Made by a program: the position numbers and the translations under genes
Notes under the pieces: model-generated
Database searches by the model: none
The model's input: the letters and a program-made list of their open reading frames with translations, nothing else
Told to the model about the DNA's origin: nothing
DNA from: Bolinopsis microptera
Lineage: Eukaryota; Ctenophora; Tentaculata; Lobata; Bolinopsidae
Direction of reading: 5' to 3'
DNA: 64,000 bases
NCBI RefSeq assembly: GCF_026151205.1
Contig: NC_087081.1
Span: 4,035,246 to 4,099,245, forward strand
Shown: piece by piece, positions 7,305 through 60,548 of the stretch
How positions within the stretch are numbered: position 1 is the first letter of the stretch
Layout of the letters: each line of letters opens with the position of its first letter

Positions 7305-9897
7305 TTATAGTATCGGCGTGGTCTCGGAATATTCTCCTTTGAAAAGTTTTCTGTTTTTCTTCATCAAATGAACTCCCCAACAAAACACCAAACACGCCAA
7401 CGACTGGAGGGAAATGAGCGTTAATATAAAATAAAATCAACAAAAAAGGAGGACCTTATTTGTTCGATTGAACAATTTCCACCATCTCATAGTAATAGAA
7501 ATTGAAGGTATTCATATTTTTTGTATTTACCTCTGCGATAAATACCAAAGCTAAGATTCCGGTGGACCACTCAAAAATGTACTTTTCAGCTACTATCCCA
7601 GAAATTGTTGCTCCGAGAAAACTACCAATGGGGAATGAGGCGCAATAAAGGGAAACAATTACGTTTTGAACCGATTGAGGCAAATCACCACCCGACTTCG
7701 TCTGAAATTACATAGGTCACAGTTGCTAGGTCACAGTTGCTAGGTCACAGTTGCTAGGTCACAGTTGCTAGGTTACAGTTGCTAGGTTACAGTTGCTAGG
7801 TTAAAGTTGCTAGGTTACAGTTGCTAGGTTAAAGTTGCTAGGTTACAGTTGCTAGGTTACAGTTGCTAGGTTACAGTTGCTAGGTTACAGTTGTTATATA
7901 TAACCTTATTACGATTTAAAAATATCAGATACGTTGACTAATCTGTTTACTTTATGAACGTTATAAACAGTTTGTTTACCTTACTAAAATTGATATTACA
8001 ACCAACAAATTATAACATTATATAAATAACATGTTTAATTTACAAACATTAAATAAACAAAATGTTTACCTTACAAATATTATAATAAACAACTTAATTA
8101 CTTTAAAAACATTATATAAACAACTTATTTACCTTGTAGATATCGAACATAACAAGGAGAACAGGGGTACACCCCATAGGAACAAAGAATCCCAAACACA
8201 TGAGCGTGGTCAATAGTTGCCCTTTTGACGGCTCGATAAACGCTGGGGTGATTTATGTTTAATTAGGTTAAACATAGATTTAATGAGTTAAGAAAATTAA
8301 TAAAAATTCGAGTTCAAGTTGAGTAACTGCAAGTTTTATATAAACTTTGGTTTACTCATTGTGCTAAACCTGTTGTCATATTTTTAATCTAAATCAGTAT
8401 TTGCAACTACAGTTAAAGGGTTCCATATCTTGTATCTAAGTGTTAAACACGTGGTTACTTAAAGAATAATCGACACAATCTCACAGTAACCATGGTAACT
8501 ATAACTATAGCTACATAGAAATTATCAAGTTACCATGGTAACTGTAACTAAAGCTACATAGAACATACCTATTTACCATGGTAACTGTAACTATAGCTAC
8601 ATAGAACATACCTATTTACCATGGTTACTGTAACTTAACCGAGTTTTTGATTCAGGATGTTACTGAAGATAGTAATGCAAATGTTTTAACACCTCAGAAC
8701 TGTGTATTACTACAGCTCAACCTGCTCAGTCTGACTAATTGGAAATTTAAACTCTTGGTAACTGTAACTATTTAATTTCACATAATATACTCACAGAGAA
8801 GTGGTAGAGGTCCAATGAACATGTAACAAATAGGAAGGAAGATGGAAGAGATCACTAAGAATATGTAAGGATTGTACCGGTCAATGAGAAAACCTGCAGG
8901 TAGATTAGAAATACAAATATACATTATAGTATATGTATGTATATATAATATACATTATATTTGAAATATACATGACTCAAGCTAATGATTACTTTTCTGT
9001 ACGCAAAAAACATGTAATTTAGAATTAAGATCACGAATCTTGCAAAACAATTTAATGCGAGGCTATTTCAATTTAAAGCTTTAAAGGTTGAGACAGACTC
9101 AGTCAGGTACTAACTACAACTTACTGCTAACTGCCACTAACTCACCTAAGAATGGGGCAGATAAACAAATGTTATACTAACTCACCTAAGAATGGGGCAG
9201 ATAAACAAATGTTACTAACTCACCTAAGAATGGGGCAGATAAACAAATGTTACTAACTCACCTAAGAATGGGGCAGATAAACAAATGTTACTAACTCACC
9301 TAAGAATGGGGCAGATAAACAAATGTTACTAACTCACCTAAGAATGGGGCAGATAAGCAAATGTTATACTAACTCACCTAAGAATGGGGCAGATAAACAA
9401 ATGTTACTAACTCACCTAAGAATGGGGCAGATAAGCAAATGTTACTAACTCACCTAAGAATGGGGCAGATAAACAAATGTTACTAACTCACCTAAGAATG
9501 GGGCAGATAAGCAAATGTTACTAACTCATCTAAGAATGGGGCAGATAAACAAATGTTACTAACTCACCTAAGAATGGGGCAGATAAACAAATGTTACTAA
9601 CTCACCTAAGAATGGGGCAGATAAACAAATGTTACTAACTCACCTAAGAATGGGGCAGATAAACAAATGTTACTAACTCACCTAAGAATGGGGCAGATAA
9701 GCAAATGTTACTAACTTACCTAAGAATGGGGCAGATAAGCAAATGCTGCCAGAGTTTATCATGAGAGCGGTCCCAGCCCAAACTACAGATTCTCCAAACA
9801 CACGTTCAACGTAGGGCGATAAGATTGGTATGTGGTAGTTTAGTAGTATCTAGTGAAAGAGAAAGTAAAAGTTAGAATGAGAGTTAAAATGACAGTG

Positions 9898-9976
<79 letters not shown>

Positions 9977-11809
9977 AATTGAACTCGTAAACTAAGAAGT
10001 TACCTGACACGCTGAGCAATGCCACGCAGCGAACAGGATGCCAGGATCCAGTAAAGTTTTGAGAGACCGCCAAGTTGTAGCCTTACTGCTGGTGGTGAGT
10101 TGGGGAACAAAACACTCAGGGAGGACGGACAGCAGGATTAGGAGACCGGGTACAAAGAACGCTAGTCTGGGGGAGACGGTTTACTGTAACTATAGTTACA
10201 GTTACCATGGTAACATGAGAGGGTTCATTGTAGCCATGGTTACAAGGATATTACAGATTGGGGACGATTGTTACAACTTTACATAAAACCGGTCTGCAGG
10301 TGAAATCATATCGACTAGTATCAACAAATTTATATCGAGCAATAATAGAATAATGAAGATACGAAGCAACTCACTGAAACCCCCCAGTCGCGTACAGAAC
10401 GCTCCCTAAAAAGGGGCCCACAGCAAGGGCCCCATTAAGAACTGTCTCCGCAAGTGCGGTTACCGTGGCAACTCTATCAGGGTAGATCGCTACCAGGGCA
10501 GCAAACGAGGTCACCGAGATTATACCCCCGCATATGCCTGTGGGAAACTTTTTTAGTTGAATACGGAAATAACTAAGGAATATGATAAAAGTAATTTTAT
10601 TGGACATACAAAATTAATCTAGTTCATATGGCAACTCTGGTTAAATGTGTTTTTAAGCACGATAAGGAAACATGCACGAATGTTTTCGATATTTTTCTAT
10701 TTTGACCAAGATGTGAAATCTGCAATCAAATATTACCTTGAACGATTCTCAAGAGGAAGCCGAACCCCACGAATATATCAGCAGATGGGACAAAATCCAG
10801 TAGACTGAACAGCATCGTGACAATACCTGAAGAGATTCAGGTGGTTACCATGGTTACCTGAAGAGGTTTAGGTGGTTACCATGGTTACCTGAAGAGTTTT
10901 ACGGTACAGAATAAACGTGTTTACAAAGTGATCCAGATCAGAGGAGAATTATTAGGTACTACCATGGTTACTATAGTTACAGTTACCATCATGGCATCAT
11001 GGCTAATAGGTTACTATAGAGCTATAGTTACAGTTACCATGGTTACTAGGTAGTTACTAGGAAACTATAGTTACAGTTACCTAATGAAGCTGTGGGCACG
11101 ATATATAGCTTCTTGTTTGAGAAGGTGTTCAAAAGAAGAGCTGAGAGGGGACAAACAAAAACGTAGCTGAAAAATATTTTATCAATTTGTTATATTGATG
11201 AGGATAAGATATGTGCCCACAAATTAATAATTATGCTATTGGTATTATACTGTATTACTAAAGGGATATTATTATTAAGATACATTTAATGTTTATTTAA
11301 ACTGCGTAAAAAGTTAACATCATAAAACTAAGTAATACTTCAGATAAAATGTGACTTGTATTTCAACTCTGATAAAGTTATAGGAACCTAAGAGGACCAG
11401 CTCCGATGAGAACCCCTGTCCAAGTACTGGAGACGTCATGAGACTGGTCGTAGAGGGGGAGGAAGGCAGCTGGGAGCGAGTAGAACACAAACGCAAAGAA
11501 CAGAACACACGTGATTATCCCTGAAAAGAAGAATTAGATACTTACATGCTACAAATTTTAATGATGTAGTTTTATGAAGATTTCGAGCCTTATGTTGTGT
11601 GTTTCCCTTCGTGTCCAAAAGCATTAGAGAATTAGATACCTGTACAAAGATTTGCTAATTAGCTGTTCTAAACAAGCAATTGATACCCTGCTCTTACTTA
11701 ATAACTTAATAATAATAAAATTAGAGCGGAAACTAGACTAAAACTCACCAAACAGGACAACTTTCCTCGTCCGTGATAAAGTGCCAGCTACGCTGTGTAA
11801 ACCCTCCAT
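7305..11809 (-). CDS. SLC18B1-like: SLC18B1-like MFS vesicular polyamine-type transporter, 434 aa, 11 exons
   Basis: Exons on the minus strand: 11809-11749, 11520-11388, 11166-11081, 10826-10737, 10537-10375, 10166-10004, 9849-9720, 8893-8795, 8242-8133, 7701-7531 and 7403-7305. They total 1305 nt with every phase matching. The start is MEGLHSVAG; the protein ends SETTPIL and stop. The predicted product is a 12-TM major facilitator. Segments line up in order with vertebrate SLC18B1, for example GIVTMLFSLLDFVPSADIF, VGPFLGSVLYATGGF (TM5 GPxxG), GPLPLL, and ASFPIGSFLGATISGIV in the C-terminal half. Human SLC18B1 (about 456 aa) is a vesicular polyamine exchanger; the substrate here is inferred from family only. 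Several introns are filled with tandem repeats. Intron 7 contains 15 extra copies of the exon 7 tail with its donor. No frame lesion is seen. Confidence 0.85.
7711..7896. repeat. 14-bp minisatellite next to exon 10 acceptor
   Basis: About 13 copies of GGTCACAGTTGCTA, drifting to GGTTACAGTTGCTA. They lie in intron 9 of the SLC18B1-like gene, about 10-20 bp upstream of the exon 10 acceptor at 7701. Confidence 0.9.
8480..8640. repeat. X-box-like palindrome repeated ~44 bp, intron 8
   Basis: Four copies of a unit containing TTACCATGGTAACTGTAACT and TAGCTACATAGAA. Each carries the GTTACC/GTAACC-AT-GGTAAC palindrome that matches the RFX X-box consensus. They lie in intron 8 of the SLC18B1-like gene. 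Confidence 0.75.
9137..9746. repeat. 38-bp minisatellite made of exon 7 tail plus splice donor
   Basis: Sixteen tandem units on the minus strand, including the functional exon end. Each unit has about 26 nt of exon 7 coding sequence (residues ICLSAPFLG) followed by a donor, GTGAGTTAGT. The functional copy at 9720/9719 reads GTAAGTTAGT. Period is 38 bp, with two units of 40 bp. Because 38 is not a multiple of 3, use of successive donors would shift frame except every third unit. Confidence 0.93.
9891..9980. repeat. (GTGAAA)n microsatellite forming the intron 6 pyrimidine tract
   Basis: About 14 GTGAAA copies. Read on the gene strand it is (TTTCAC)n and fills most of the 154-bp intron 6, leading into TTTCTCTTTCACTAG at the exon 7 acceptor (9850). 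Confidence 0.93.
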
Positions 11810-12422
11810 CGCTCTGTTGAGCACTATTCCCAACTATTAGAATATTATTTCAATATTCTATTACATTTACAGTATTCTAGTATTACCAACAAGCAAAAAA
11901 CCTTGTGACTATAAGAATTATTTACAGTTATGTTTGTCAACTAGCTCGCAACTAAAGCTCGCAACTAAAGCTCGAAACTAAAGCTCGCAACTAAAGCTCG
12001 CAACTAAAGCTCGCAACTAAAGCTCGCAATTAAAGCTCGCAACTAAAGCTCGCAACTAAGATTCATTTGCAACTTGTAATATTATTTTTTACGTATTCTG
12101 ACATCTAAGACTCTGACTGAGTAGCGCAACTAGAAGTTATTGGTTATAATTTAATGGTTCATTTTACGTTTAGTGGCTTTACTTAACAACTGTTGATAAA
12201 AATATTCATTGAATTGGAAATATGGAAACGAGCCATGCTCATCAGTCAGAAACTCTCAAAATGATTCAAATAAGTAAAAATCAAAAAGTATCTTAAATTT
12301 GAAATGTCTAGACACTAAGATAATGTTATCATTTTGTTACACAGCATTCGGGCAGATATTTGATAAGGAGTCATTGTAATATATTAAAATTATTATTATA
12401 ATATTATTATAATATTATAAAC
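11810..12422 (-). promoter_or_regulatory. 5' flank of the SLC18B1-like gene with a 13-bp array
   Basis: Upstream of the start codon. It contains about nine copies of CTCGCAACTAAAG (11938-12058), followed by AT-rich sequence with ATTATTATAA runs near 12390-12420. No core promoter can be assigned with confidence. Confidence 0.35.
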
Positions 12423-12554
12423 ATGGTTTCGACTAACATAATTACTGATAAACTGGACGAAGTACAGAGTAAAATGTTTTTGATGAGTTTAGAAAGGTTA
12501 TCAGGTTCTATTATATTGATTAGGTTCTATATTGATATAAGATATCTCAGTCCC

Positions 12555-12715
12555 AAGGGTATTAGTAAAATCCCAATTTACCGCGTAGTTTGGGGGAAAA
12601 AAACAACCGCAGTAAATCGGGGCGCTGTAAATCGAGTTTTTGTTTGTTCACTTTATGTATGTTAAGCCCCACTTGGGGAAAGGAAAAAACGCGGTAAATT
12701 GGGGTATTAGGTACA
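12555..12715. repeat. dispersed repeat with CCGCGGTAAATTGGGG-type motif
   Basis: CCCAATTTACCGCG, CCGCAGTAAATCGGGG and CGCGGTAAATTGGGG occur in inverted arrangement. The same motif (CGATTTACCGC, CGCGGTAAATCGG) recurs at about 55083-55160. It is probably a short interspersed element; ends are not defined. Confidence 0.5.
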
Positions 12716-41700: not shown

Positions 41701-44700
41701 TATCGCTGCTGGTTGTAAAGTAAGAAAACACCTTGGGATGTGCTGTTTATTTTGGGTGTTGGGTACGCTATCGCTGCTGGTTGTAAAGTAAGAAAACACC
41801 TTGGGATGTGCTGTTTATTCTCGGTGGCGGGTACGCTATAGCTGCTGGCTGTAAGGTAAGAAAACACCTTGGGATGTGCTGTTTATTCTGGGTGGCGGGT
41901 ACGCTATAGCTGCTGGTTGTAAGGTAAGAAAACACCTTGGGATGTGCTGTTTATTCTGGGTGGCGGGTACGCTATAGCTGCTGGCTGTAAGGTAAGAAAA
42001 CACCTTGGGATGTGCTGTTTATTTTGGGTGTTGGGTACGCTATCGCTGCTGGTTGTAAGGTAAGAAAACACCTTGGGATGTGCTGTTTATTCTGGGTGGC
42101 GGGTACGCTATAGCTGCTCGCTGTAAGGTAAGAAAACACCTTGGGATGTGCTGTTTATTCTGGGTGGTGGGTACGATATAGCTGCTGGCTGTAAGGTAAG
42201 AAAACACCTTGGGATGTGCTGTTTATTCTGGGTGGTGGGTACGATATAGCTGCTGGCTGTAAGGTAAGAAAACACCTTGGTTATCTCTTATAGCTGCTGG
42301 CTGTAAGGTAATTGTTTTGAAACGCCACCAGGATAATTTCTAATTAGATTCGTTCATTAACGACAAAATTTTAAAATTTTAACGAAAAAAACGTATCAAT
42401 GTATCTTATACAAATATTGTATAATACTGCATAATAATCGTTGTCAAACGTAATTCTTGTACAGGTTTAACCCACTTATACTGTTTATAGTCCATAAATG
42501 AGAGCTCGAAACTCGGAAAAGCTAATTTTCCCATCAGTATTAAGATCCGCTTCTTCTAACAAGTACATAATGTCCTCTGTTAGAATTCCAACGTCTGCTT
42601 TTTGCATCGCTACCGCTACCTTCAGGAAGTTGAGATCAGTCAAATTATCATGAAAATAACCCTTATAAAGTTCGAGCATTGGTGGAGATATAAACAAAGT
42701 TAGAATTAGAATGAACAAAATTCGAAAGAATGAGGTCTAATGGCATAAACGCCATTACACTCCATAACACTCCATAACACGCCATAACACTCCATAACAC
42801 TCCATAACACTCCATAACACTCCATAACACTCCATAACACTCCATAACACTCCATAACACTCCATAACACTCCATAACACTCTTCTCACCTCTTCGTGTG
42901 ACACCTCCCCGCTTCCGTCTTCATCTATCAAATTAAAAGCGTCCACAACTTCGTCTGAGTTTGGTTTTTCTGCCATTATCTCCTCAATGTACGCCATCAG
43001 CTCATCAAAGTCTACAGTTCCGTCCTGGTCTGTGTCTACCTTTAAAGAAACTCATTGAATAATTATGCAATTATGCAATTAAGCAATTGTACAATTAATC
43101 GGATTCTGAACGTAGACTTAAAATATGTATTTTAGACTTTAAATTGGCGTCAGACTTAAAATTGGTACTAAACTGAAGGTTACCAGTATTTTCACAAATG
43201 GAAATCGATGTTATTTATTTATGCAATTATACATATTGTTATCTATTTTATTTACCACGTACGGTAATGTATATAAGTCAAACCTGCCCAAGCTAGAGAG
43301 CCACGTACGGTAATGTATATATAAGTCAAACCTGCCCAAGCTAGAGAGCTGCACGTACGGTAATGCTTCCAGACAAAGTGAAGATATTTTGACATAAGTC
43401 GTAAAATAACAGTAGAATGTAGACTAAAATAAATCTTTAAATTATAAAAAGGCACCCACACGAAAAAAAAAACCTTGATCAAATTTGCAAGGCTATAAAA
43501 TCATAACAAAAACAGTGGTGGTAGTCATGGTAACTAAAACTGTAGTAACCTTTTCAAAGAAAGCCTTCAGATCCTCTTTCAGAGCAATGACATTAAAATT
43601 AGCAAACATTTTCTGCAGCTCATCCAGCTCCAGTGTCCCGTTTGCATCTATATCATAAGTTTTAAACATGCTTTTCATCTCCGTCTCCTCCTCCTTAGTC
43701 AACGTACTGGTACTAAACTCCATCTTCAAGCTTTCAAGGCATTCGTATCTAAGGAGGAACATTTGTTTAAGTTGAGAGTGAATCATGGCAGTAAATAAAG
43801 TTGGAATCACCTAGAATTGCAAAACAACTTTGTTACTGCCGACTCTGCACCGACTAATAGCTGCTATGTCTGCACAAATAAAAGGTAAATCGGTTGTTAA
43901 ACCAGTTAAACGACAGTATTGAACATATTACATTTGATTTTACAATTATTATTATGAAAGTATTCTTGTGAGGTCTGGTATTGCATGTAACGTAGGATGT
44001 ATCAGTAAATGTCACTGAGCTAAAATATTAACTGTATTAAATATAGTGGCAAGAATGTTATGATAATACAAAAAAATCTAACGATTTTAAGCATCGAAAT
44101 TGTAGATTGCAGCCTTGCGTCTAAGATGAGATATACATAACATACCACGTGTTACCATGGTAACATGTGTTCAAACAGGAATCTTGATAATAACAGCCTT
44201 GCGTCTAAGATATGATATAGTTTTATAGATTTATATTAACAGGAAACGATGTCCGGTAGTTTCATTGCGTCCTAATATACACAAAATATGGCTTATCAGC
44301 GTGCGCGGGAATATATTATGTACATAGCGGGTCTGCCAATGACTGTGGCTACAACGTGGGAATTATCAGTAAATGCCACTGTGGTAAAATTCTAACCACA
44401 GCCGAACTGCCGAAGCTGTTAGAAGTTATAACCACAAATGAAACCCGGAAGCCTCCTAATTATTTAAAATGCTAAACGTATGATGGGGATGGAAATGCTT
44501 TTCAGAGTTTTAGAAGAATCACCCAAGTTGCAGCAGAACAAAGACAAAATTAAAATTATAATTGGTCTAATTCAGTCTTGAAAATAGTCCTAGGCTATAA
44601 TTAAATTTAAAACGCATTAAAACAATCGTTTGAAAATGTAATCCCAAAATAAACTTCTATTTCAGGGACACAGAGCTTGACATAAATTATAATAAAGGTA

Positions 44701-47700
44701 TAATTGGTATCCGGCGGACAAAAGGCGGAATGAGGCATAATTATGACTAATTATGAGTAGAATAAATACATGAAATGACCAAGGAGAACACTAATACTTG
44801 CACTAATTTGTATGTTAAAATGAAACCAAGTTTTAGAATATTTTTGACTACATCTATTGAGAATTGAGGAATGCCCAAAATGAGATCATGCATAAATAAA
44901 GAAATAAAGCTATCCAATCTTAATTTATGTAGTCAGAAACGCCCAAAATAAGATTTCGATTCTCGTGCATAAAGTTACCAGTCGGGGATAAATTGTCGAG
45001 TAAACCATTATTATAAATAGTTAGCAAACTATGTATTATAATGGTACTGTTTTTAACTTTTAACCCTATTTATAATTACCCCTTAAGGTTTACTAGGTGA
45101 TAATTCGACTAATTGTCAATCAAATCACTGTGTTGGAATATAGGATCATCAAGTCCGCTAAATATTTATATTGCCCACTTTCATTGTCGCCCTGATGGCC
45201 ATAATATAACTTGAAGAATGAGTATCGTCGAAACAATTACAATTTATGTGGATCAAAAGCAACTAATAGTAATATTAGCCAGTAGCCAGTCGTTCAAATA
45301 AACAATAGACTTAGAGAAACAAATAATATATTCAACCACAAACTGAATTCCAGGCCATCTATCTGAAATAGATACGTTTGCGTGCCGTGTCTATGTTTAT
45401 TATCGACAGCCTTATCCGAAAGAAAATAGAAAATCCAAGCAGACTAAATTAATGACTGTTGTAAATTGTAGCTACCAAATATTCGTACCACGTGTTACCA
45501 TGGTAACATGTGTTTACTTATGTTATGGTATCATGTGATTAAGCTACCAACTATTTACTACTTTACTATTATATTTCGTGCCGATCAACCCTATAGAAGA
45601 TTGATAAGGTCCGTTTTACAATCAGTTTTCGTCCTTTCCTGTAGGTGTTAAAAAAGAGTTAAAAATGTTTGATAATTCCGTATATGCGACCAAGGGGAAC
45701 TTTTCTTTTCAGGTAAAGGAAACTTAATCTCTAAACGAGTTTTAATAATTTCAACACTGCTATATACTTATATAACACTGTTATATATAATAAATAATTT
45801 GAGATCATGAATACGATGTTGTAACATTGAACGTTGAGTAAATTCCTTTCCTGATAAGAGCATTTTTCCTTGTCGCATCAAACGGGAATACAATTTTACA
45901 CAAGAATACTGTGAACTCTAGACATCACAACAATGCGACTTATAAATGATGTTACTATCCGGGTAATTCAAGAAAATGGGAAGTATCTAAGCATAAAAAG
46001 TTCAGTGAAACATCTATTACAGTATTTACCGACTAACGAACATATCAGAAAGAAATCTACCAGAACCAAATCCATCGAACATATCAAAAAGAAATCTACC
46101 AGAACCAAATCCATCAGACAAACGCATATCTTTAAATCTAGCCGCTCTAGAACCTGGAACGACGACAACTGTATTCCTACTGTGATGAACTGTATGCCGT
46201 CTTATGATGAACGATCAGATATATTATACCCTATCATTCATATCCCGGTAAAGTTCATATTTCCTACAGTCTACAAAACAGAGTGCAGTTGGTCAGTTAC
46301 AGCCGCCGCTTATAGCTGGATCAACTTGTACAGTTACTAGGAAATTTAATGCCAGCAAGTAAAGTCATGATGTCAAATCAGGGAGAAACATGGAGCAAGT
46401 CTTTACAAAAATAGGTCGCAATGGCCAATGCGTTGTTATAAAAAACATGTATTGAAAATAGTTGGAGCTTTATAAGATTAGTGAATATAATAAGACTAAC
46501 CAGAGTTGGACTGAATGTTGAGGCTGAGTTAGCTTCACAAACCTAGCTGTAGACTGACAGACTAATCATGTATATATGGACACGTTCATTTTAGTTTGAG
46601 GATATCGGTAAATATTAGTGGCCCTATTAAATGGCACGACGAGGTAAAATTTGTCACACTATGAAATTATATAAACCCTCAATGGTTAGGATAATCGTAT
46701 CATCCTCTAGGCAAACTTTGTCACATAACTACATATATCAGATGATAAGATTTCGCTTAAATTAGGCAGTGAGATGTAAAGTAGATCTAGCCATCCAATA
46801 GTTTAATGAACATCCCAGAGAGTTAATCAGTCCTGAAAATGGGACAAATATCTAAAATCTTCAAAAGATATAAAAATAAAGCTCGGATAAAACTTCATGA
46901 AATTATGCATTAAATAAGCCTGAAATTAAATATTCTACACCATAATATTCTACCTAATAATATACCGAAGGGTAACTTATCGTCCTAGATATACAATATT
47001 AATAATGATTATAATGATGATATTAGTAATTATACATACTCTATATTTAGAGAAACATATATTTACCCAAAAGTCAAAAAGTATAAATACAAGAGAATGA
47101 GAATAAAATTTCAACACTATAATAATAATAATAACCTGGTTTTATTCCCTTGCGCCCCGGTTTTCTTCCCTTGCGCCCGGTTTTCTTCCCTTGTACCCGG
47201 TTTTCTTCCCTTGCGTAGCAAGCCCTGTCTCTTGTAAAAACAACCTCGAAAGATTTGTAGATACACATAGTCTCTACACCTTTACCCTCTGGTCCCTAGG
47301 GTCAGCTGACTCCGGGCCAGAGGAATATTACCGATTGCCAAGGTTTGATGCCTAGGCAGTCGAGACCTCTTATTGAGACCCGATATAATAATAACTAGAA
47401 ATTTATACATCGCTTTATAGCCAAAAAGAACTCAAAATCCAAAAAATTCAGTTCAAGCCATTTAAAGCGACTCATAAACATGTTCACAAGAACTTAGAAT
47501 TTAATGAAGTATGGTTTTTATGAGAAAGATATTATATGATACTTAGATGAATACTTTTTCAAAGAGATGAGTCTCTAGTCTCTTTTTAAACAAGACAATA
47601 TTGGTCAATGTTATCTATAATCACCATGGCAACACTATTATAAAGTTATAAGTATAATCACCATGGCAACACTATAATTACAATGGCAACACTATAAGTA

Positions 47701-49005
47701 TAATCACCATGGCAACACTATAAGTATAATCACCATGGCAACACTATAAGTATAATCACCATGGCAACACTATAATAACCATGGCAACACTATAATAACC
47801 ATAGCAACACTATAATAACCATGGCAACACTATAATCACCATGGCAACACTATAATCACCATGGCAACACCCCCAGGATTCAGGACTATCAGCCTGGATC
47901 GGAGAACAGTTTAGTTTCCTCCACAACAGCCCCCATGTCGTGATCGCACTGGTGGTTTCCTCTTTTGTAGCGGTACTCACCGAGTTCGCTTCAAACACCG
48001 CCTCTACTACCCTACTTCTACCAGTTCTAGTGTCGCTTAGTCAGGCTATCACTGTAAGTGTCTGTATGCGGGTTAGCTTTTTAATGTTTTTAATGTTAGC
48101 TTTCTAATGTTTTTCATGTTAGCTTTTTATGTTTTTCATGGAAATTCAGATTTCAAACTTTTATGGAAATTTTATTGCTTTATTATTATAAACTTTACCA
48201 TAGATTAGCTCAAACTAAAGGAATGAAATATTTGAGAGGTTTTTTAAATGAACTATAGTGCCAGTACGATAACTCACAAAAATAATTATAAAGGAGTTAT
48301 AACTGTTTAACTGTTTAAATATTCAATTTTGTAAATAAAACAAACTGTCAACAGGTTCACCCATTGTACCTAATGATGACTGGGACCCTATCAGCTTCAC
48401 TTGCCTTCTGTTTACCTTCTGCTACTGGGCCTAATGCGCTAGTGTTCGCCTACCCTGAGATTAAAGTTATTGATATGGTTAGTTGTTATACAAATCTACC
48501 AATATTTATTTTATTCCGCAGTAGATTAATATTGGATATTGATTATTGATGAATAGAAAGGTAAAATGCTGGTACATACAACCAGCTCAGTAACCATGGT
48601 AATCAGCCCAGCAACCATGGTAACCAGCTCAGTAACCATGGTAACCAGCCCAGCAACCATGGTAACCAGCTCAGTAACCATGGTAACCAGCTCAGTAACC
48701 ATGATAACCAGCCCAGTAACCATGGTAACCAGCTCAGTAACCATGGTACCCAGCCCAGTAACCATGGTAACCAGCTCAGTAACCATGGTAACCAGCTCAG
48801 TAACCATGGTAAAAGATGTTGATCAGTTAACAAACTAACATAAAAACCTTTTCCTCAGATCAGAACAGGACTAGTAATGAACTTTGTGTGTGTGTTATTA
48901 ACAGTAGCAGCTACTTCTACCTGGGTCTACACCATGCTAGACTTATCAGAGTACCCTTGTTGGGCAGATCCAAACGACAACATAACATGTACCTTCACAC
49001 CATAA
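29795..49005 (+). CDS. SLC13-like: SLC13-family Na+/carboxylate or sulfate cotransporter, 617 aa, 14 exons
   Basis: Exons: 29795-29859, 34802-34907, 35275-35409, 35632-35752, 35981-36085, 36304-36413, 39206-39323, 39464-39667, 40038-40207, 41171-41324, 41533-41651, 47877-48053, 48355-48477 and 48859-49005. They total 1854 nt with all phases closing. SLC13 (DASS/NaDC/NaS) proteins couple Na+ to uptake of di/tricarboxylates or sulfate at the plasma membrane. Landmarks: WMTEAVPLMITALLP, both substrate/Na+-binding SNT motifs (MSNTATTAMM, residues 165-167; ASNTASTT, 508-510), GASIGGIATLTGTPPN, WDVLFILGGGYAIA, ASLAFCLPSATGPNALVF, and C-terminal DLSEYPCWADP. Length is normal for SLC13A2/A3/A5-like members (about 570-630 aa). 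Substrate cannot be set from sequence. Introns host LINEs, a foldback, minisatellites and a nested EF-hand gene. The stop codon lies in the first units of a 3.7-kb minisatellite. Confidence 0.92.
30070..31292 (-). mobile_element. LINE fragment (5'-truncated RT), antisense in SLC13 intron 1
   Basis: An open frame, 31286-30105 (393 codons), starts at RT motif A (INFIDFKAAFDSIN, catalytic Asp). It continues through GTGQGDVQGPPIFNLVLNW (motif B) and DYADDIAGM (catalytic YADD), then the C-terminal LRWFGHVSRMPEDRLP block common to one large group of animal LINEs. The fingers and endonuclease are missing, so it is a truncated copy. The apparent Met is internal; clade is not assigned. Confidence 0.85.
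31300..31825. other. intron 1 spacer, includes a small dispersed repeat
   Basis: 31555-31615 (TGTGTTTTCCTTCGTGTCCA) is also found at 11590-11630. The upstream TTTCAACACT...ATAATTTGAG block resembles 45750-45810. This is a short interspersed family; otherwise nothing is recognised. Confidence 0.5.
31830..34620 (-). mobile_element. degenerate RLE-type (R2/NeSL/HERO-like) LINE lacking the RT core
   Basis: Minus-strand fragments in element order: a basic N-terminal part (34620-33882), an RT N-half reading YGRVPHSLIIYALRRYHLP (33860-33399), a linker/thumb (33370-32744), a zinc knuckle CKLCSKQGTLNHILTFC (C-x2-C-x7-H-x4-C) at about 32570-32525, and a restriction-like endonuclease segment (PLRSDVVSYS...VYLMELTCGNE) at about 32230-32110, continuing to 31830. 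Several frameshifts separate the pieces. The RT motifs B and C (YADD) are absent between 33399 and 33370, so the copy has an internal deletion. It is antisense in SLC13 intron 1. Confidence 0.8.
36414..36730. repeat. 21-bp minisatellite starting at SLC13 exon 6 donor
   Basis: About 14 copies of CTGTTACCATGACCACCCCC plus A. It begins within ten bases of the exon 6 donor (GTCAGT at 36414). The array resumes at 38113-38185 after the LINE insertion. Confidence 0.95.
36731..38112 (+). mobile_element. LINE 3' fragment with RNase H, inserted in the minisatellite
   Basis: An open frame to 37725 encodes an RNase H domain and a C-terminal zinc knuckle. The catalytic carboxylates are visible: CYTDGS, QTELTTI, WSDSLSS and NEKADELAK. 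The knuckle is CPMCGDGEETVSHFIAQCP. It ends in an A-rich tail (AAAAATTAAAAAAATTAAAAAA region, 38092-38112). Both flanks are the same 21-bp repeat, showing insertion into the array. The RT itself is missing. This domain order is found in I/R1-type LINEs. Confidence 0.85.
38113..38325. repeat. remnant of the 21-bp array plus (AAATCATCGC)n
   Basis: 38113-38185 continues the CTGTTACCATGACCACCCCC array. 38218-38322 holds about eleven copies of the 10-mer AAATCATCGC. Confidence 0.92.
38392..39093. mobile_element. 702-bp foldback MITE, two 287-bp arms
   Basis: The left arm 38392-38678 and right arm 38807-39093 are inverted copies of equal length. They begin ATTTATTTTTAATTGTAGTT, and the 128-bp loop is unique. 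The arms carry GTCGACGTTTCGGCTACATG. No transposase. It lies in SLC13 intron 6; the target duplication is unclear. Confidence 0.85.
39655..39952. repeat. 36-bp minisatellite spanning the SLC13 exon 8 donor
   Basis: About eight copies of ATAATCAGGTTAGCAACTGT plus TGCTAATAGCAACATG. The first copy overlaps the exon 8 end: GATAAATCAG then donor GTTAGC at 39668. The unit contains a TTAGCAAC/GTTGCTAA hairpin. The unit therefore copies about nine exonic bases plus the donor. Confidence 0.9.
40345..41148. repeat. compound minisatellite ending 23 bp before SLC13 exon 10
   Basis: Units of about 60 bp (GTCATGGTAACTAATCTACT, ATTACTGTTGCCTTATGGG, GGTGGTTATGGTAACAGTGG) alternate with shorter units of about 39 bp that lack the second half. 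The array stays open for 268 codons only because the unit lacks stops. Confidence 0.93.
41586..42318. repeat. 68-bp minisatellite: tandem copies of SLC13 exon 11 tail with donor
   Basis: Exon 11 ends TGTAAG then GTAAGA (41651/41652). Downstream, ten further copies of the last 66 coding bases (KKTPWDVLFILGGGYAIAAG block) follow, each ending in TGTAAG-GTAAGA or TGTAAA-GTAAGA. Period is exactly 68 bp; the last unit is shortened. Sixty-eight is not a multiple of 3, so unit read-through shifts frame. The seam is an AAGA shared by donor and exon. Confidence 0.95.
42485..43723 (-). CDS. calmodulin-like protein with four EF-hands, 152 aa, nested in SLC13 intron 11
   Basis: Exons: 43723-43550, 43039-42890 and 42619-42485 (stop TAA); all junctions are phase 0. 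Four canonical 12-residue Ca2+ loops are present: DIDANGTLELDE (about 24-35), DTDQDGTVDFDE, DEDGSGEVSHEE (split from its exit helix by intron 2) and DLNTDGKISFSE. All have Asp at position 1 and Glu at 12, so all should bind Ca2+. Size and spacing fit the calmodulin/troponin C superfamily, but the sequence is well diverged from calmodulin. The role is a Ca2+ sensor; targets are unknown. It lies antisense within the 6.2-kb intron 11 of SLC13. The start MEFSTSTL is chosen because acidic EF-hand proteins begin close to the first helix; an in-frame Met at 43810 is possible. The exon 3 acceptor is the unusual AAG at 42620. Confidence 0.85.
42754..42884. repeat. 10-bp minisatellite at the EF-hand exon 2 donor
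   Basis: About 13 copies of ACTCCATAAC begin six bases inside intron 2 of the EF-hand gene (donor GTGAGA at 42889). Confidence 0.93.
43255..43360. repeat. ~55-bp tandem duplication in EF-hand intron 1
   Basis: CACGTACGGTAATGTATATA plus AGTCAAACCTGCCCAAGCTAG occurs twice, with a third partial CACGTACGGTAATG copy. Confidence 0.85.
44140..44290. promoter_or_regulatory. X-box-like palindrome upstream of the EF-hand gene; partial dispersed repeat
   Basis: CACGTGTTACCATGGTAACA (44149 on) is a near-perfect palindrome centred on an RFX X-box-type core, 430 bp upstream of the EF-hand start codon. The same sequence recurs at 45490. 44222-44280 is a partial copy of the 23579/28031 repeat. Confidence 0.45.
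44291..47600. other. SLC13 intron 11, mostly unrecognised
   Basis: Contains a second CACGTGTTACCATGGTAACA palindrome (45490) and a 135-codon plus-strand open frame (45933-46340) with a duplicated KKSTRTKSI motif. That frame has no recognised domain and could be a small gene or chance. A short GGTTTTCTTCCCTTGCGCCC repeat lies at 47150-47210. No convincing exons. Confidence 0.35.
47605..47876. repeat. ~21-bp CACCATGGCAAC minisatellite abutting SLC13 exon 12 acceptor
   Basis: About 12 copies of ATCACCATGGCAACACTATA. The last unit runs directly into CACCCCCAG and exon 12 (47877), so the acceptor lies at the array edge. The unit matches an RFX half-palindrome, CCATGGCAAC. Confidence 0.92.
48583..48812. 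repeat. 21-bp X-box-like minisatellite in SLC13 intron 13
   Basis: Eleven copies of CAGTAACCATGGTAACCAGC plus T or C. It occupies most of the 381-bp intron 13. The same unit forms the array at 54190-54315. Confidence 0.95.
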
Positions 49006-52000
49006 CATGTACCTTCACATTATAACATGTACCTTCACATCATAACATGTACCTTCACAACATAACATGTACCTTCACAATATAACATGTACCTTCACAA
49101 CATAACATGTACCTTCACACCATAACATGTACCTTCACATTATAACATGTACCTTCACACCATAACATGTACCTTCACATCATAACATGTACCTTCACAT
49201 CATAACATGTACCTTCACAACATAACATGTACCTTCACAATATAACATGTACCTTCACATCATAACATGTACCTTCACACCATAACATGTACCTTCACAA
49301 CATAACATGTACCTTCACACCATAACATGTTTACCTTCACATCATAGCATGTACCTTCACATCATAGCATGTACCTTCACACCATAACATGTACCTTCAC
49401 ACCATAACATGTACCTTCACAACATAACATGTACCTTCACACCATAACATGTACCTTCACACCATAACATGTACCTTCACAACATAACATGTACCTTCAC
49501 AACATAACATGTACCTTCACAACATAACATGTACCTTCACAACATAACATGTACCTTCACACCATAACATGTACCTTCACAACATAACATGTACCTTCAC
49601 AACATAACATGTACCTTCACAACATAGCATGTACCTTCACAATATAACATGTACCTTCACAACATAACATGTACCTTCACACCATAACATGTACCTTCAC
49701 ACCATAACATGTACCTTCACATTATAACATGTACCTTCACATCATAACATGTACCTTCACAACATAACATGTACCTTCACAACATAACATGTACCTTCAC
49801 AACATAACATGTACCTTCACACCATAACATGTACCTTCACAACATAACATGTACCTTCACACCATAACATGTACCTTCACACCATAACATGTACCTTCAC
49901 AACATAACATGTACCTTCACAACATAACATGTACCTTCACAACATAACATGTACCTTCACATCATAACATGTACCTTCACACCATAACATGTACCTTCAC
50001 AACATAACATGTACCTTCACAACATAACATGTACCTTCACAACATAACATGTACCTTCACACCATAACATGTACCTTCACAACATAACATGTACCTTCAC
50101 ACCATAACATGTACCTTCACACCATAACATGTACCTTCACAACATAACATGTACCTTCACAACATAACATGTACCTTCACATCATAGCATGTACCTTCAC
50201 AACATAACATGTACCTTCACACCATAACATGTACCTTCACAACATAACATGTACCTTCACAACATAACATGTACCTTCACACCATAACATGTACCTTCAC
50301 AACATAACATGTACCTTCACATCATAACATGTACCTTCACACCACAACATGTACCTTCACAACATAACATGTACCTTCACACCATAACATGTACCTTCAC
50401 ACCATAACATGTACCTTCACAATATAACATGTACCTTCACACCATAACATGTACCTTCACAACATACATGTACCTTCACACCATAACATGTACCTTCACC
50501 ATAACTGTACCTTCACAACATAACATGTACTTCCACAACGACTAACATGTACCTTCACAACATAACAGTACTTCACACCATAACATGTACTTCACAACAT
50601 AACATGTACCTTCACAACATAACATGTACCTTCACTACATAACATGTACTTCACACCATATCATGTACCTTCACACCATAACATGTACTTCACACCATAA
50701 CATGTACCTTCACACATAACATGTACCTTCACAACATACATGTCACCTTCACACATAACATGTACCTTCACACCATACATGTACCTTCACACCATAACAT
50801 GTACTTCACACCATAACATGTACCTTCACACCATAACATGTACCTTCACACCATTAACATGTACCTTCACAACCATAACATGTACCTTCACAACATAACA
50901 TGTACCTTCACACCATAACATGTACCTTCACACCATAACATGTACCTTCACACCATAACATGTACCTTCACAACATAACATGTACCTTCACACCATAACA
51001 TGTACCTTCACACCATAACATGTACATTCACAACATAACATGTACCTTCACACCATAACATGTACCTTCACAACATAACATGTACCTTCACACCATAACA
51101 TGTACCTTCACACCATAACATGTACCTTCACACCATAACATGTACCTTCACAACATAACATGTACCTTCACACCATAACATGTACCTTCACAACATAACA
51201 TGTACCTTCACACCATAACATGTACCTTCACACCATAACATGTACATTCACAACATAACATGTACCTTCACAACATAACATGTACCTTCACAACATAACA
51301 TGTACCTTCACACCATAACATGTACCTTCACAACATAACATGTACCTTCACACCATAACATGTACCTTCACAACATAACATGTACCTTCACAACATAACA
51401 TGTACCTTCACATTATAACATGTACCTTCACACCATAACATGTACCTTCACATCATAACATGTACCTTCACACCATAACATGTACCTTCACACCATAACA
51501 TGTACCTTCACACCATAACATGTACCTTCACAACATAACATGTACCTTCACACCATAACATGTACCTTCACAACATAACATGTACCTTCACAACATAACA
51601 TGTACCTTCACACCATAACATGTACCTTCACACCATAACATGTACCTTCACACCATAACATGTACCTTCACACCATAACATGTACCTTCACAACATAACA
51701 TGTACCTTCACAACATAACATGTACCTTCACAACATAACATGTACCTTCACAACATAACATGTACCTTCACAACATAACATGTACCTTCACAACATAACA
51801 TGTACCTTCACACATAACATGTACCTTCACAACATAACATGTACCTTCACAACATAACATGTACCTTCACACCATAACATGTACCTTCACATCATAACAT
51901 GTACCTTCACACCATAACATGTACCTTCACAACATAACATGTACCTTCACAACATAACATGTACCTTCACAACATAACATGTACCTTCACAACATAACAT

Positions 52001-52700: not shown

Positions 52701-52704
52701 AATA

Positions 52705-53725: not shown

Positions 53726-53729
53726 TCTA

Positions 53730-55080: not shown

Positions 55081-55082
55081 AC

Positions 55083-55512: not shown

Positions 55513-55550
55513 AACTTGCAGTTTACTACATATGGCCGTCTCTGTAAAGT

Positions 55551-58500
55551 TTACCGCACATGTGAAGAAGACCGGAGATTAGAAGTACTGCCCCCACTAG
55601 TAGCAGTGTGGGTGGATATCAGGGAGACTACAGATAGTTGTGTGTTGGGACCCCCCCTCTTCTTCTTTTTCTTCTTCCTGTCCCCAGGCTGGACTGTCAT
55701 CACCTCGTCTAGCGAGGAGGTGGACTTGGAGTTAGCGTCCACTGTTCTACTGTGTAGTGTCTTCTGTACAGGTGTCTTGGTGGTGCAGCCCACGTGGAGG
55801 AGGAACCTTTCTAATGTGTTCTTGTAGGCTTTTCTGAAGACGGGGTTTACCAAACCGTATATTATAGGGTTCACTGAAATTGTGGTTGGGTAAGATTTCA
55901 CTATGAGGTTGTATGGTCGTGGTTTTTTTTTAAAGGGCGAATGTAAAATCACTATGGCTTAAAAATAGGTCTTATAGAGGTCTATCATATCCCGAAAAGT
56001 TTGAAGCTCTATCGTGCCAAGTTTAGATTTTTAAACTTTCAAAGGGCGAATGTTATTTTCGAGATTTCAAATGCCGAATGTTACTGTCACCAAAATGTAA
56101 TTAGATCGAACGCAGAAATTAAATCGAACCGGTTCGATCTAGGAATTAGATCGAACGCGCGGCGCGGCTTTCAATGTATTTATAATTATATATGTATCTC
56201 GCGCCAGCGTTCGATCTAATTCCTAGATCAAACCGGTTCGATCTAATTTTTGCGTTCGATCTAATTACATCTTGGTGACAGTTATACAATATGTTATACA
56301 TACAATGTCACACATTCGCCCTTAAACTCACTGCAACCAATAAGATTATTCAGCTCAAACCATTTCAACAGATATTAACTCCGGAGATAGATATATTAGA
56401 TATAGCATGAATATTTTTATACATTAAGAGAATTAAAAAAATATATATATACTTTCAAATTGTTACACGAATACATAATTGTATTTCAAAGAAAATTCGC
56501 CAAATGAGCATGAACATGCCTCGACAGTTGACAAGTGACCAAGTGTAAAAAGAATAAGGGTCACTGAAACAGATGACCGGTACACTAGCCATGTCAATTA
56601 TTTTATCTATGGAACAAAGGGAGATTAATGGAAATAATACCTGCATTGTTGAAAAGAAGAAGCCAGTGGAAAGCGACAAATATTTTGAATGAGATTGCAG
56701 TAGATCCAGTGATAAAGCTGAACATTCCTGAAAAGTAGTGTTTTATATTTATGTTACAAGAGATTAGTTCTTATAATGGAGGTTGGCAACTCTCTCTATT
56801 AAAGTATTAATGGCCTCATGTGGGAAGCCTTCTCACTGTGCCCTCAGAGTGAAACTCCTGCTAGCTACAGCCAAGGACTCCCTAAGTATGATATACAAAA
56901 TCATAAAATAATATATATTCATTAATTGAAACTTATTGTTTCATTGAATAGATATTGGATATGAAGGTTAACAAGATCGGGCGGGTGTTGCTTTAAGCCC
57001 TAACCCAAACTTTGATTTGATCATTTTGGTCTAAAGACGATAACAGAAGGGGGAGGGGTCTAAGACAAGCCCCCCCCCCCTTCTGCAGCTCACCTAATAT
57101 TAATATAGGAAGAAGACAAGACCCCCCCCCCCCCTGCAGCTCACTTAATATGGATATAGGAAGAAGACAAGACCCCCACCCCCCCTGCAGCTCACCTAAT
57201 ATTGATATAGGAAGAAGACAAGACCCCCCCCCCCCTGCAGCTCACCTAATATGGATATATGGAGAAGACAAGACCCCCACCCCCCCCCCTGCAGCTCACC
57301 TAATATTGATATAGGAAGAAGACAAGACCCCCCCCCTGCAGCTCACCTAATATGGATATATGGAGAAGACAAGACCCCCACCCCCCCCACCCCCCCTGCA
57401 GCTCACCTAATATTGATATAGGAAGAAGACAAGACCCCCCCCCCTGCAGCTCACCTAATATTGATATAGGAAGAAGACAAGACCCCCCCCCCCCCCCCCC
57501 CCTGCAGCTCACCTAATATTGATATAGGAAGAAGACAAGACATCATCATGCCAATTATGATAAGGATCATGAGAGCTGCCCGCAGGTTATTTTGCTGTCG
57601 CGACTGCTTTTTACAGTCCTTCTTGTTGTTTGAGATGTTGGTTGCTTTCTTTCCATGTCTCTGAGATACCTAAATAATTACTGGTTAATTTTAGTGTCAT
57701 ATATATATATATCAATATATTACATTACATGACATTTGGCGAATGAATCGTTGTTATAATTTTAAATCTTCCATAATTGATATTCGATGTGTATTCAATG
57801 AGCAAAGAAAAATGTTATGGAAAACAGAATATATCCTGAAGAGGAATCACAAGAATAACAAGAATAACAAGAATAACAAGAATAACAAGAATAACAAGAA
57901 TAACAAGAATAACAAGAATAACAAGAATAACAAGAATTGCAAGAATTACAAGAATTACAAGAATTACAAGAATTACAAGAATTACAAGAATTACAAGAAT
58001 TACAAGAATTACAAGAATTACAAGAATTACAAGAATTACAAGAATTACAAGAATTACAAGAATTACAAGAATTACAAGAATTACAAGAATTACAAGAATT
58101 ACAAGAATTACAAGAATTACAAGAATTACAAGAATTACAAGAATTACAAGAATTACAAGAATTACAAAATTACAAGAATTACAAGAATTACAAGAATTAC
58201 AAGAATTACAAAAATTACAAGAATTACAAGAATTACAAAAATTACAAGAATTAAAATAATAAGAATAACAATAATTACCCTGAAGATGTGAAAGTAAAAG
58301 AAGACAATAAATCCGAGCGGAAGAGGCACAAAGAATATGGTGTAGACAGTACAGTACACGAACCCCCACCCTTTGTCGTCACAGTTCAACCCACAGGAGA
58401 AAGCAAAGGGACTGTACTTGTAGTAGGCGAATTTCACCTGTTCCGTAGGTACATTAATTAAATGAAATACTTTTTATAATCGTAAAAATTTTGTTCCCTA

Positions 58501-60548
58501 GCTCCTGAGCTCCACTCAAAAAATTATAAATAAAAAATTATATTATGACAGTATAATCAGTACTCAGTATGCGTACCGATTGCAATAACTAAACGTGTAA
58601 ATCGGGATTCAATAAAGCTGAAGACGCGACGATTCGTCTCAAAACTTTTCATCTATCATAGCAGTTCGAATGTAAATTTAATTTAAATTCGTACCCTACA
58701 CAATCTAATCTGACCGCAAAACATCAAAGCAGTAACTACGGCTTAAAAATAGACACATAAAATATATGGGTATACCTGAAAAAGGGGGATGATGGTGAAA
58801 CAACACGACACAAACCAAATAACCCCTATCATTATCAGAGCTTTTCTCTTCGTCATGGAGGATCTGTAACTGTGGGGCCTACACAGCATGTAGTATCTGA
58901 ACATAATATTCAGGAATATTCAGTAATATTCAGTAATATTCAGTAACATTCAGTTATATTCAGTTATATTCAGTAATATTCAGGTATATTCAGTAATATT
59001 CAGGTATATTCAGTAATATTCAATAATATTCAGTGATGTTCAATAATATTTAATAATATTCAGTAATATTCAGTGATATTCAATAATATTCAGTAGGTAA
59101 TATTCAATAATATTTAGTAATATTCAGTAATATTCAGTAATATTCAGTAATATTCAGTAATATTAAATAATAAGGACGCATACTGGTAACTGGTATGATT
59201 CTTAAAACAGCAGGCTCTCTACGTAGAACAGCGAAAAAGCATTAAATAAAATCGTCTGGAAATTATGTTCCATAGTGTATTTTCGGTATCTTTTGTGTAT
59301 TTAATGATACTTATAGTGTATTTAATGGTACTTATAATGTATTTAACGTTACTTATAGTGTATTTAATGTTACTTATAGTGTATTTAATGGTATCTCTAC
59401 AACATAACTTAAATCTTCTCATACCTGTCGAAACTACAGAAAGCGACAGTCCAGACACTAGCAAAGAGAACAGTGTTATCAATGAAGGCTGAGAAGGCAC
59501 AGGCCCAGTCGGGGAGGAGCCAGGCGTTAGCGACCACTGACACGAAAGTTATAGGCATGTTCCACACACCTGGCCATTACAAATGTTATTTGTTTATTTT
59601 TCAAAAGATTTAATATATGAGGGAAATAGGAACTATGACCGAAGAATGTGTTTGAGATTGTTCAGCCAGTAAAATTATATCGTTTGAGTAGATATATATT
59701 ATATATTATATACAATATATATACAATATATACATTATACAATGTACAATATACATATCTTGAGGTCGTGTTACTGTGACAGCTATTATGCATCAGATCA
59801 AGTTTAAATTTTAATCAGATTAACTTTAAATTTTAACAGGGCGATTCAGATTTTTTTAATAAAGCCGTATCAATTGCGATAGCTGCTGCTGTAAAATTGG
59901 TTGATTACATTTTTAAGTAATTGATCAGTAAATAGTGCAAAAATTCAATTATTGGAAAGAAATGAAAAGTAATATAGCTTAATAAATATGACAGTAACAA
60001 CGTGTACAATTCATTACATCTTAATCTTTAACACGTGTCACTATTTAAATGGGCATCACGTGTCAATAATGTCGGCTTTTGATTAATATCTACCATGAAA
60101 CTATGCAGCATACGCAGATTCTAAAGTTTAAATCTTGTGGAGAACATACTTTTATTTAAACGTTTACTTTATGTCTATTTTACTTATATTTTGCTTGTAC
60201 GATAATCACACTTACCCACAATCATGTCAGTCAGAGAAAGGTTAAAGATAAAGAGATTGCTGATCCTCTGAAGACTTTTGTTACACAAAATGGATACCCA
60301 GAGGAGGAAGTTACCTGTTGTGTATTTTAATGTTTAATGTTATGCAATATAATGATTAATAAGTATATACTCTTATATTAACCATATTTATCTTAGCCCA
60401 GGATTTGATAATTAATTATTATTAATAACGACGAGACCCAGAAGAGAAAGTTACCGAAGGTAGCGAGAAAGGAAAAGAGGGCTATGCTCAGGGCTAGGAG
60501 GGATCTTTCCAGATCGGTAAAGGGGGGCGCTTCTGCCCCAGCTACCAT
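55551..60548 (-). CDS. class A (rhodopsin-like) GPCR, 391 aa, 8 exons
   Basis: Exons: 60548-60455, 60314-60216, 59569-59425, 58896-58776, 58437-58279, 57660-57513, 56727-56641 and 55873-55551. They total 1176 nt with all phases closing. Short N-terminus MVAGAEAPP. TM1 contains GN (32-33, split by intron 1), TM2 LSLTD (D2.50), TM3 WACAF (disulfide Cys) to SFDRYY (DRY 112-114, split by intron 3), TM4 IGVIWF, ECL2 with FSCGLNC, TM5 FFVPLPLG (P5.50). TM6 reads MSCLLPIS, a CWxP motif with Leu in place of Trp. TM7 ends NPIIYG (286-290). The 100-residue tail is Ser/Thr-rich with a K6 run. The ligand class is not recognisable; an orphan amine/melatonin-like receptor is possible. Intron 1 begins with a copy of the exon 2 start. 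Intron 6 begins with eight extra exon 6 tails. Confidence 0.88.
55932..56323. mobile_element. MITE with AAGGGCGAATGT ends in GPCR intron 7
   Basis: TIR TTTAAAGGGCGAATGT (55932) is matched by ACATTCGCCCTTAAA at the other end. Inside is a long inverted repeat (CTGTCACCAAAATGTAATTA, about 56088-56166, and its complement at about 56207-56284) rich in TTCGATCTAAT. TTAA-like ends hint at piggyBac-type; no transposase. Confidence 0.7.
57065..57560. repeat. ~50-bp minisatellite: tandem copies of GPCR exon 6 tail with donor
   Basis: Nine units on the minus strand, including the functional one. Each has GTCTTGTCTTCTTCCTATAT plus CAATATTAG (residues SCLLPISIL of TM6), then donor GTGAGCTGCAGG and a G run of 7-22. 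The functional donor is at 57512. Unit length varies with the G run. The intronic copies keep TTAG-GTGAG intact in most units. Confidence 0.94.
57847..58258. repeat. 9-bp (ACAAGAATT)n array at GPCR exon 5 donor
   Basis: About 45 copies of a 9-bp unit, ACAAGAATA then ACAAGAATT. On the gene strand it reads GTAATTCTT and begins about 20 bases into intron 5, whose donor is GTAATTATTG. It is open in several frames as a result of composition only. Confidence 0.95.
58903..59170. repeat. 10-bp (ATATTCAGTA)n array at GPCR exon 4 acceptor
   Basis: About 25 degenerate copies fill intron 3 from about 7 bp upstream of the exon 4 acceptor (58897). Confidence 0.92.
59283..59400. repeat. ~19-bp (TGTATTTAATGGTACTTATA)n array near GPCR exon 3 donor
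   Basis: Six degenerate copies in intron 3, ending about 25 bp from the exon 3 donor (59424). Confidence 0.88.

Follow-up and report, generated by a model that had tools for sequence, protein, structure and literature searches.

Tandem arrays that cross 5' splice sites in genes of the ctenophore Bolinopsis microptera

We analysed a stretch of 64,000 nucleotides from the 264.65-Mb genome assembly of the ctenophore Bolinopsis microptera (C10:4035246-4099245, hereafter the window), in which tandem arrays lie at the splice sites of several genes, together with myosin genes from elsewhere in the same genome. In the two samples combined, arrays cross 11 5' splice sites (donors) and one 3' splice site (acceptor), and the repeated unit of several donor-crossing arrays consists of the end of the exon followed by the donor. 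An earlier note on this DNA had suggested that arrays are tolerated or used at splice sites, which is supported for donors. Ordinary tandem duplications across donors probably survive by virtue of a first donor that still works, while those that cross acceptors would be purged.

Copy structure of the arrays and use of the first donor

Window exons were obtained by three-frame reading and joining, followed by checks against NCBI proteins, Pfam and structures. Four genes are supported, namely an SLC18B1-like major facilitator superfamily transporter gene (7300..11833, minus strand, 11 exons modelled from 11749-11833 down to 7300-7403), an SLC13 gene coding for a Na+/citrate cotransporter-like protein (29795..49010, plus strand, 14 exons modelled), an EF-hand (calbindin-like) gene nested in an SLC13 intron (42480..43748, minus strand, 3 exons modelled) and a rhodopsin-type, TAAR5-like G-protein-coupled receptor (GPCR) gene (55555..60555, minus strand, 8 exons modelled). 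The earlier note had counted five genes, the fifth of which found no support. The SLC18B1-like model corresponds to NCBI protein P0121 (100% identity over 98% of the query), with a frame open across the modelled junctions and a structure match to SLC18B1. The spliced SLC13 model is identical to NCBI protein P0001 at 617 of 617 residues and matches Pfam Na_sulph_symp and the SLC13A5 structure. The GPCR model corresponds to NCBI protein P0128 (TAAR5-like, 100% identity over 99% of the query) and aligns with the beta-1 adrenergic receptor from transmembrane segment 1 to beyond transmembrane segment 7. For the EF-hand gene, the support consists of a Pfam EF-hand match and a frame open across its junctions. 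Because part of the training set of the gene finder employed below came from the window exons, it is the NCBI proteins, and not the gene finder, that provide an independent check on these models.

Five donors of the window are crossed by arrays. In the SLC18B1-like gene, 16 copies of 38 bp (9136..9745, minus strand) span donor 9719.5; each unit comprises 26-28 nt of exon end followed by GTRAGTTAGT, with the GT intact in 15 of the 16 copies. In the same gene, a degenerate array with a 31/63-bp period (8014..8135, minus strand) crosses donor 8132.5 by 3 nt. Donor 41651.5 of SLC13 is crossed by a 68-bp x 10.2 array (41586..42280, plus strand), whose unit is made of 66 nt of exon end (KKTPWDVLFILGGGYAIAAGCK) and GT, the latter intact in all 10 copies found. 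A 36-bp x 8 array (39662..39949, plus strand) crosses donor 39667.5 by 6 nt, with seven of eight GTs intact. In the GPCR gene, the array across donor 57512.5 (57062..57541, minus strand) has 9 copies spaced 47-60 bp apart, each composed of 28-29 nt of exon end and GTGAGCTGCAG, with an intact GT in 9/9. Among the myosin genes, one on C2 harbours 22 copies of a 40-bp unit made of exon end and GTAGGAGAG; the copies are identical, which may be an assembly effect. Another, on C13, has a 31 bp x 4.1 array at a donor that includes 14 nt of exon. Across five donor-crossing arrays, the GT is kept in 63 of 65 copies. The exon part of the 11 donor-crossing arrays ranges from 1 to 66 nt (14-66 nt in five, 1-6 nt in the other six), and in all 11 the acceptor of the intron lies outside the array.

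The first donor is the one used in the gene models. NCBI proteins P0001, P0121 and P0128, from three window genes, are spliced at the first copy, their junction peptides being uninterrupted there, in keeping with tolerance at donors, and the alignments with SLC13A5 and the beta-1 adrenergic receptor run straight across the array junctions. The main period found by Tandem Repeats Finder (TRF) is not a multiple of 3 for 8 of the 11 donor-crossing units, and use of a later donor would therefore usually shift the frame.

Other arrays stop close to splice sites. On the intron side of donors, a 21-bp x 15 array (36419..36734, plus strand) begins 5 nt inside donor 36413.5, a 10-bp x 14 array of the EF-hand gene (42744..42882, minus strand) begins 7 nt inside donor 42889.5, and a 9-bp x 48 array (57844..58278, minus strand), whose unit contains the donor-like GTAATT, begins exactly at donor 58278.5. 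Near acceptors, arrays stop 11 nt short of 7701.5 (14 bp x 12.9; 7713..7893, minus strand), 2 nt short of 9849.5 (6 bp, TTTCAC in gene sense, x 22; 9852..9983, minus strand), 3 nt short of 39205.5 (11 bp x 3.2; 39168..39202, plus strand), 6 nt short of 47876.5 (20-bp unit; 47615..47870, plus strand) and 7 nt short of 58896.5 (10 bp x 27; 58904..59172, minus strand). The sole acceptor-crossing array counted (31 bp x 2.4; 10824..10896, minus strand) passes acceptor 10826.5 by 3 nt.

The earlier note had listed at least fifteen arrays within about 25 bp of a splice site, and 11 of its 15 sites are borne out. Arrays approach the sites near 7701, 9850, 36414, 42889, 47877, 58278 and 58897 to 11, 2, 5, 7, 6, 0 and 7 nt, respectively, and contain those near 9720, 39668, 41652 and 57512 with 26, 6, 66 and 29 nt of exon. 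Three more, near 41171, 59424 and 48859, are true splice sites with arrays farther away than claimed (30, 34 and 46 nt), and at 19382 no exon end was found by eye or by the gene finder. Sites that it had missed include donor 8132.5 and acceptors 10826.5 and 39205.5, as well as four others with an array at 18-21 nt.

A 3.7-kb array of SLC13 (48977-52701, about 186 copies of 20 bp) starts within the last codons of the gene and includes the stop codon; the C-terminus of the NCBI protein, NITCTFTP, falls within its first copies. Its logic is the same as that of the donor arrays, function being retained by the first copy.

Frequency of arrays at donors and acceptors

The 68 merged arrays of the window occupy 26% of its bases (TRF, score >= 50). 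They have the make-up of minisatellites, or variable number tandem repeats (VNTRs), with units of roughly 6-100 bp repeated head to tail in several copies. Comparison loci totalling 185 kb contain 132 arrays over 9.5% of their bases. The window is thus unusually array-rich, which inflates raw counts, and we compared observed numbers with those obtained by re-placing the arrays. Several distance and TRF score cut-offs were tried.

Final window numbers are those of corrected models, with 32 introns, 64 splice sites and 38 array entries in the four genes. Four arrays that lie in introns of the nested EF-hand gene are counted there and again in the surrounding SLC13 intron. The first window models lacked GPCR exons 56641-56727 and 60216-60314, SLC13 exon 39206-39323 and the first three SLC13 exons, and SLC18B1 exons 11081-11166 and 11749-11833. 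With random placement within introns, an array was found within 8 nt at 13 of the 64 splice sites for 2.56 expected (p=0.0002, floor), that is, at 8 donors for 1.29 expected and at 5 acceptors for 1.27 expected (p=0.004). When placements were allowed to cross junctions, expectations rose to 3.1 at each end, leaving an excess at donors (p=0.006) and none that was significant at acceptors (p=0.18).

The outside sample represents one gene family, collected from the same genome by matches to myosin head exons. Twenty stretches (185 kb) were merged into 12 on 7 contigs, or 11 without a near-identical one. A first set of introns was paired from Pfam exon matches, of which 72 of 73 were used; five at C3:4.91 Mb lay outside the stretches taken. 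The 35 introns kept out of 37 had 2 sites within 8 nt of an array for 0.5 expected (p=0.075). For a second set, we retained 96 of 274 gene-finder introns, those shorter than 12 kb, outside the near-identical stretch at C11:12.107 Mb and with a junction across which a myosin from a different locus could be aligned. This homology filter is lenient, as the junction of the 22-copy C2 array barely passes it, with 3 identical residues per side and 3 gaps. At 8 nt, the 96 introns gave 9 donors for 1.16 expected (p=0.0002) and 3 acceptors for 1.14 expected (p=0.10) with random placement, and 9 donors for 3.2 expected (p=0.002) when crossing was allowed. Without the homology filter, three exon-score cut-offs yielded 5, 8 and 11 donors for 0.66, 1.08 and 1.58 expected, and no significant excess of acceptors, at the same distance.

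Several features of the myosin loci were observed in passing. At C11:12.107 and 11.962 Mb, separated by about 145 kb, lie two myosin-like genes with nearly identical predicted proteins; one prediction has an additional insert derived from an array. At another locus, adjacent matches at C3:9154012-9154203 and 9154255-9154485 correspond to the same myosin-head segment (profile positions 105-167 and 102-167) and are possibly duplicated, perhaps mutually exclusive, exons. Lastly, a 27-bp x 36 array at C2:20654222-20655203 has an open frame (EDTVVAAGS) and lies in a paired myosin intron; the gene finder called it coding.

A duplication is free to extend over a junction, and the null model that we consider fair accordingly allows units to begin at any position from one unit into the exon onwards. 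With this model, and for both samples combined, 17 donors have an array within 8 nt for 6.3 expected (p=5e-5, floor of 20,000 runs), and acceptors are at expectation (7 for 6.3, p=0.45), with an excess only at 25 nt (15 for 9.8, p=0.04). The permutation that the earlier note had envisaged genome-wide as a possible refutation revealed an enrichment, over the window and the myosin family.

We separated crossing from abutting arrays in 128 introns (32 from the window and 96 from myosin genes) with 85 array entries. An array was left out of the crossing class if its extension into the exon exceeded one unit plus 3 nt. A single acceptor-side array, C11:11964837-11965059, was removed in this way; it extends into a predicted exon by 177 nt. 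Under the fair null, the 11 crossed donors compare with 4.65 expected (p=0.004; 5 for 2.35 in the window alone, p=0.07), and the single crossed acceptor represents a deficit (4.66 expected, p=0.04). The donor-crossing excess persists at TRF scores of at least 80 (p=0.004) and at least 120 (p=0.023). Arrays abutting a junction within 8 nt were found at 6 donors and 6 acceptors, for 1.72 expected in each case (p=0.007 for both).

Explanations for arrays at donors

We propose the following course of events. In a region rich in tandem duplications, some would include a 5' splice site by chance. After duplication of an exon end with its GT, the first donor would yield the normal mRNA, and the additional copies, exon sequence included, would become intron. 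With the exon still delimited by its first donor, such a duplication would leave no trace in the mRNA. Tolerated and presumably neutral, it could then grow into a long array of intact donors. At acceptors, a crossing duplication would instead provide an earlier AG and an altered mRNA, and would be removed. Finally, the live exon and its array may exchange sequence, or arrays may be born repeatedly from the exon. In three arrays, with 15 sites that differ between exon-derived copies and the exon, 10 differences are synonymous and 5 non-synonymous, for 25-30% synonymous expected (p=0.001-0.003), and this excess suggests such exchange or repeated birth.

Several results weigh against this account. 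The acceptor deficit is weak, and it is not significant at TRF scores of at least 80 (p=0.13) or at least 120 (p=0.17). Tolerance alone predicts the 4.65 donor crossings of the fair null, and the number found is 2.4-fold higher (p=0.004); abutting arrays are moreover in excess at both intron ends (6 for 1.7 each). Both excesses are beyond what the tolerance model accounts for. First-donor use was read from NCBI gene models, which are possibly computed predictions, rather than from RNA. Of the 10 synonymous differences, one or more are specific to the exon, in that all 9 intron copies differ from it, which is attributable to selection on the exon. Lastly, junction 30-mers are no more often copied than intronic ones, which counts against a strong claim: near-perfect nearby copies exist for 3 of 24 donors and 0 of 25 acceptors, compared with about 20-24% of intronic 30-mers. 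This control is cruder than the placement tests in that it scores membership of an array rather than array edges and requires 20 nt of exon in the copy, and it consequently misses arrays that start at the GT.

The alternatives are not all mutually exclusive with survival through the first donor. One that we deem unlikely, albeit the best placed among them, is that 5' splice sites are hot spots of duplication and not merely safe sites, through a process linked to transcription or splicing, such as R-loops, paused polymerase or nascent RNA bound by U1. The donor excesses beyond tolerance (17 for 6.3 near donors, 11 for 4.65 crossed) speak for it, as do the dimensions of near-donor arrays. With the first window models, 16 such arrays were longer than 59 interior ones (median 125 versus 48 bp) and had larger units (29.5 versus 17), with equal copy identity. 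However, the abutting excess is as large at acceptors as at donors, and part of the effect is therefore not donor-specific; larger units are also likelier to reach a junction. A bolder form of this idea, to which we lend somewhat less credence, would make donors the preferred birthplaces of tandem arrays in ctenophores. Co-transcriptional or splicing-linked events would amplify exon end and donor time and again, and the intronic copies would exchange with the live exon, so that introns would grow on the donor side and could rewrite exon ends.

An explanation that we consider rather doubtful is that arrays beside a splice site persist longer because deletions removing them would also hit the splice site or the exon. 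The equal abutting excess at the two intron ends is what such survivorship would produce. However, near-donor arrays do not appear to be older, with a copy identity of 93.5% compared with 93.0% for interior arrays with the first window models (p=0.87), and the crossing of donors but not of acceptors is left unaccounted for.

Chance, combined with the selection of an array-rich window by the earlier note's reader, or a bias of the gene finder, is an improbable explanation. The array content of the window, the modest result for the first myosin set and the 30-mer control lean towards it; the donor excess in the 96 introns with junctions spanned by paralogues, with crossing allowed, argues against it. 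So does a test in which arrays were collapsed and re-created as random tandem duplications able to cross junctions, and the gene finder was run again (8 nt, lowest exon-score cut-off, no homology filter). Outside the window, these simulations gave 2.6 +/- 1.8 donors for 11 observed (p=0.01, floor of 96 runs) and 2.3 acceptors for 3 observed (p=0.46). For the window, 200 runs gave 1.35 donors for 5 observed (p=0.025) and 1.12 acceptors for 4 observed (p=0.03); at the strictest cut-off, the donor excess was not significant (2 for 0.39, p=0.055).

It is very improbable that the arrays created the introns. Their units do hold an exon end with a GT, and precedents for intron gain by tandem duplication have been published, as far as the available parts of PMC4974935 and PMC2891723 describe them. 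However, the acceptor lies outside the array in all 11 donor-crossing cases, and the positions of introns that carry a donor array are shared with a paralogue about as often as those of the remaining introns (3 of 9, compared with 29 of 86); together, these observations speak against intron creation by the arrays. Equally hard to credit are selected platforms, with U1 recruited to the repeated 5' splice sites and the transcript thereby protected or enhanced: runs of 22 identical copies (myosin) and of 16, 10 and 9 (window) with intact donors would fit, but the copies are young, so that intact donors are expected without selection, and by eye the GT seems to be kept no better than the rest of the unit.

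The earlier note had also invoked seeding by AGGT or GTAAG microhomology, which we reject as a general cause. In 166 arrays away from verified splice sites, AGGT occurs in 29 units (24.6 expected from random local segments) and GTAAG in 9 (7.0 expected), close enough to expectation to argue against general seeding by these motifs. A surplus of GTAAG in 30 arrays near splice sites (7 for 1.5 expected) would follow if such arrays include the donor. In two two-copy donor arrays, inspection by eye suggests that the breakpoints share 1-2 bases only.

Related systems, other features of the window and implications

We searched the literature for exon-boundary tandem arrays, intron gain by duplication and ctenophore or Bolinopsis repeats, a scope that left subscription papers mostly outside. 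Among the matches listed, titles and the openings of abstracts contained no description of donor-derived arrays in animal introns, and boundary terms had no match in PMC3152781. The earlier note's statement that no such system was described is nevertheless too strong, as tandem duplication of segments containing splice sites is a published route of intron gain, according to the accessible text of PMC4974935. The arrays fall within this known process of intron evolution by tandem duplication and do not represent a new system.

In the parts of these sources that were available, the potato RNA-dependent RNA polymerase case (PMC4974935) resembles ours in the tandem duplication of an AG/GT or intron-exon-boundary segment with an unchanged protein. 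It differs in that the Bolinopsis intron is not located between two copies; its acceptor is outside, and the array lengthens the donor side. Fission yeasts have multi-copy 24-bp exonic duplications containing AGGT (Zhu and Niu 2013, as cited in PMC4974935), similar to the Bolinopsis arrays in their several tandem copies of an exon segment. As that text presents them, the yeast intron spans two or four copies, whereas in Bolinopsis a single array can have as many as 22 copies, the pattern is repeated at donors of unrelated genes, and the gene models leave the arrays outside the mRNA. Drosophila introns derived from proto-splice-site duplication share duplicated AG/GY segments with splicing potential, but the portions of PMC2891723 at hand propose these duplications as intron-creating, not as donor-side arrays. 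Intronic minisatellites, such as those of earthworm metallothionein introns, are likewise tandem arrays inside introns, but they are not described as exon end plus donor in what was available of PMC12783039.

Other features of the window were recorded. The first SLC13 intron (30105-34481) contains minus-strand open frames that, by eye, resemble fragments of reverse transcriptases of the long interspersed nuclear element (LINE) type; a scan of the LINE open reading frame against the genome contigs found no relative, and a phage search gave no match. A perfect inverted repeat (15524-16656 and 16968-18100) has arms of at least 1133 nt and a 311-nt spacer, and may represent a genuine palindrome, a mobile element or an error of assembly. 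Two arrays with units of about 180 bp are found in opposite orientations (3446-4095 and 4804-5495). The octamer ACCATGGT is about 8 times more frequent in the window than in 185 kb of other loci (0.42 versus 0.05 per kb), part of its window occurrences being inside arrays. The palindrome GTTACCATGGTAAC resembles an RFX/X-box site.

Genes in which 9 to 22 near-identical donors follow one another in the same exon context, with the first used in the gene models, are natural experiments on how a splice site is chosen. The arrays also represent a route by which introns can lengthen on the donor side with the protein untouched. The asymmetry between donors and acceptors is a prediction that is checkable in any annotated genome. 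If duplication were truly biased towards donors, local amplification of DNA would be tied to splicing or transcription.

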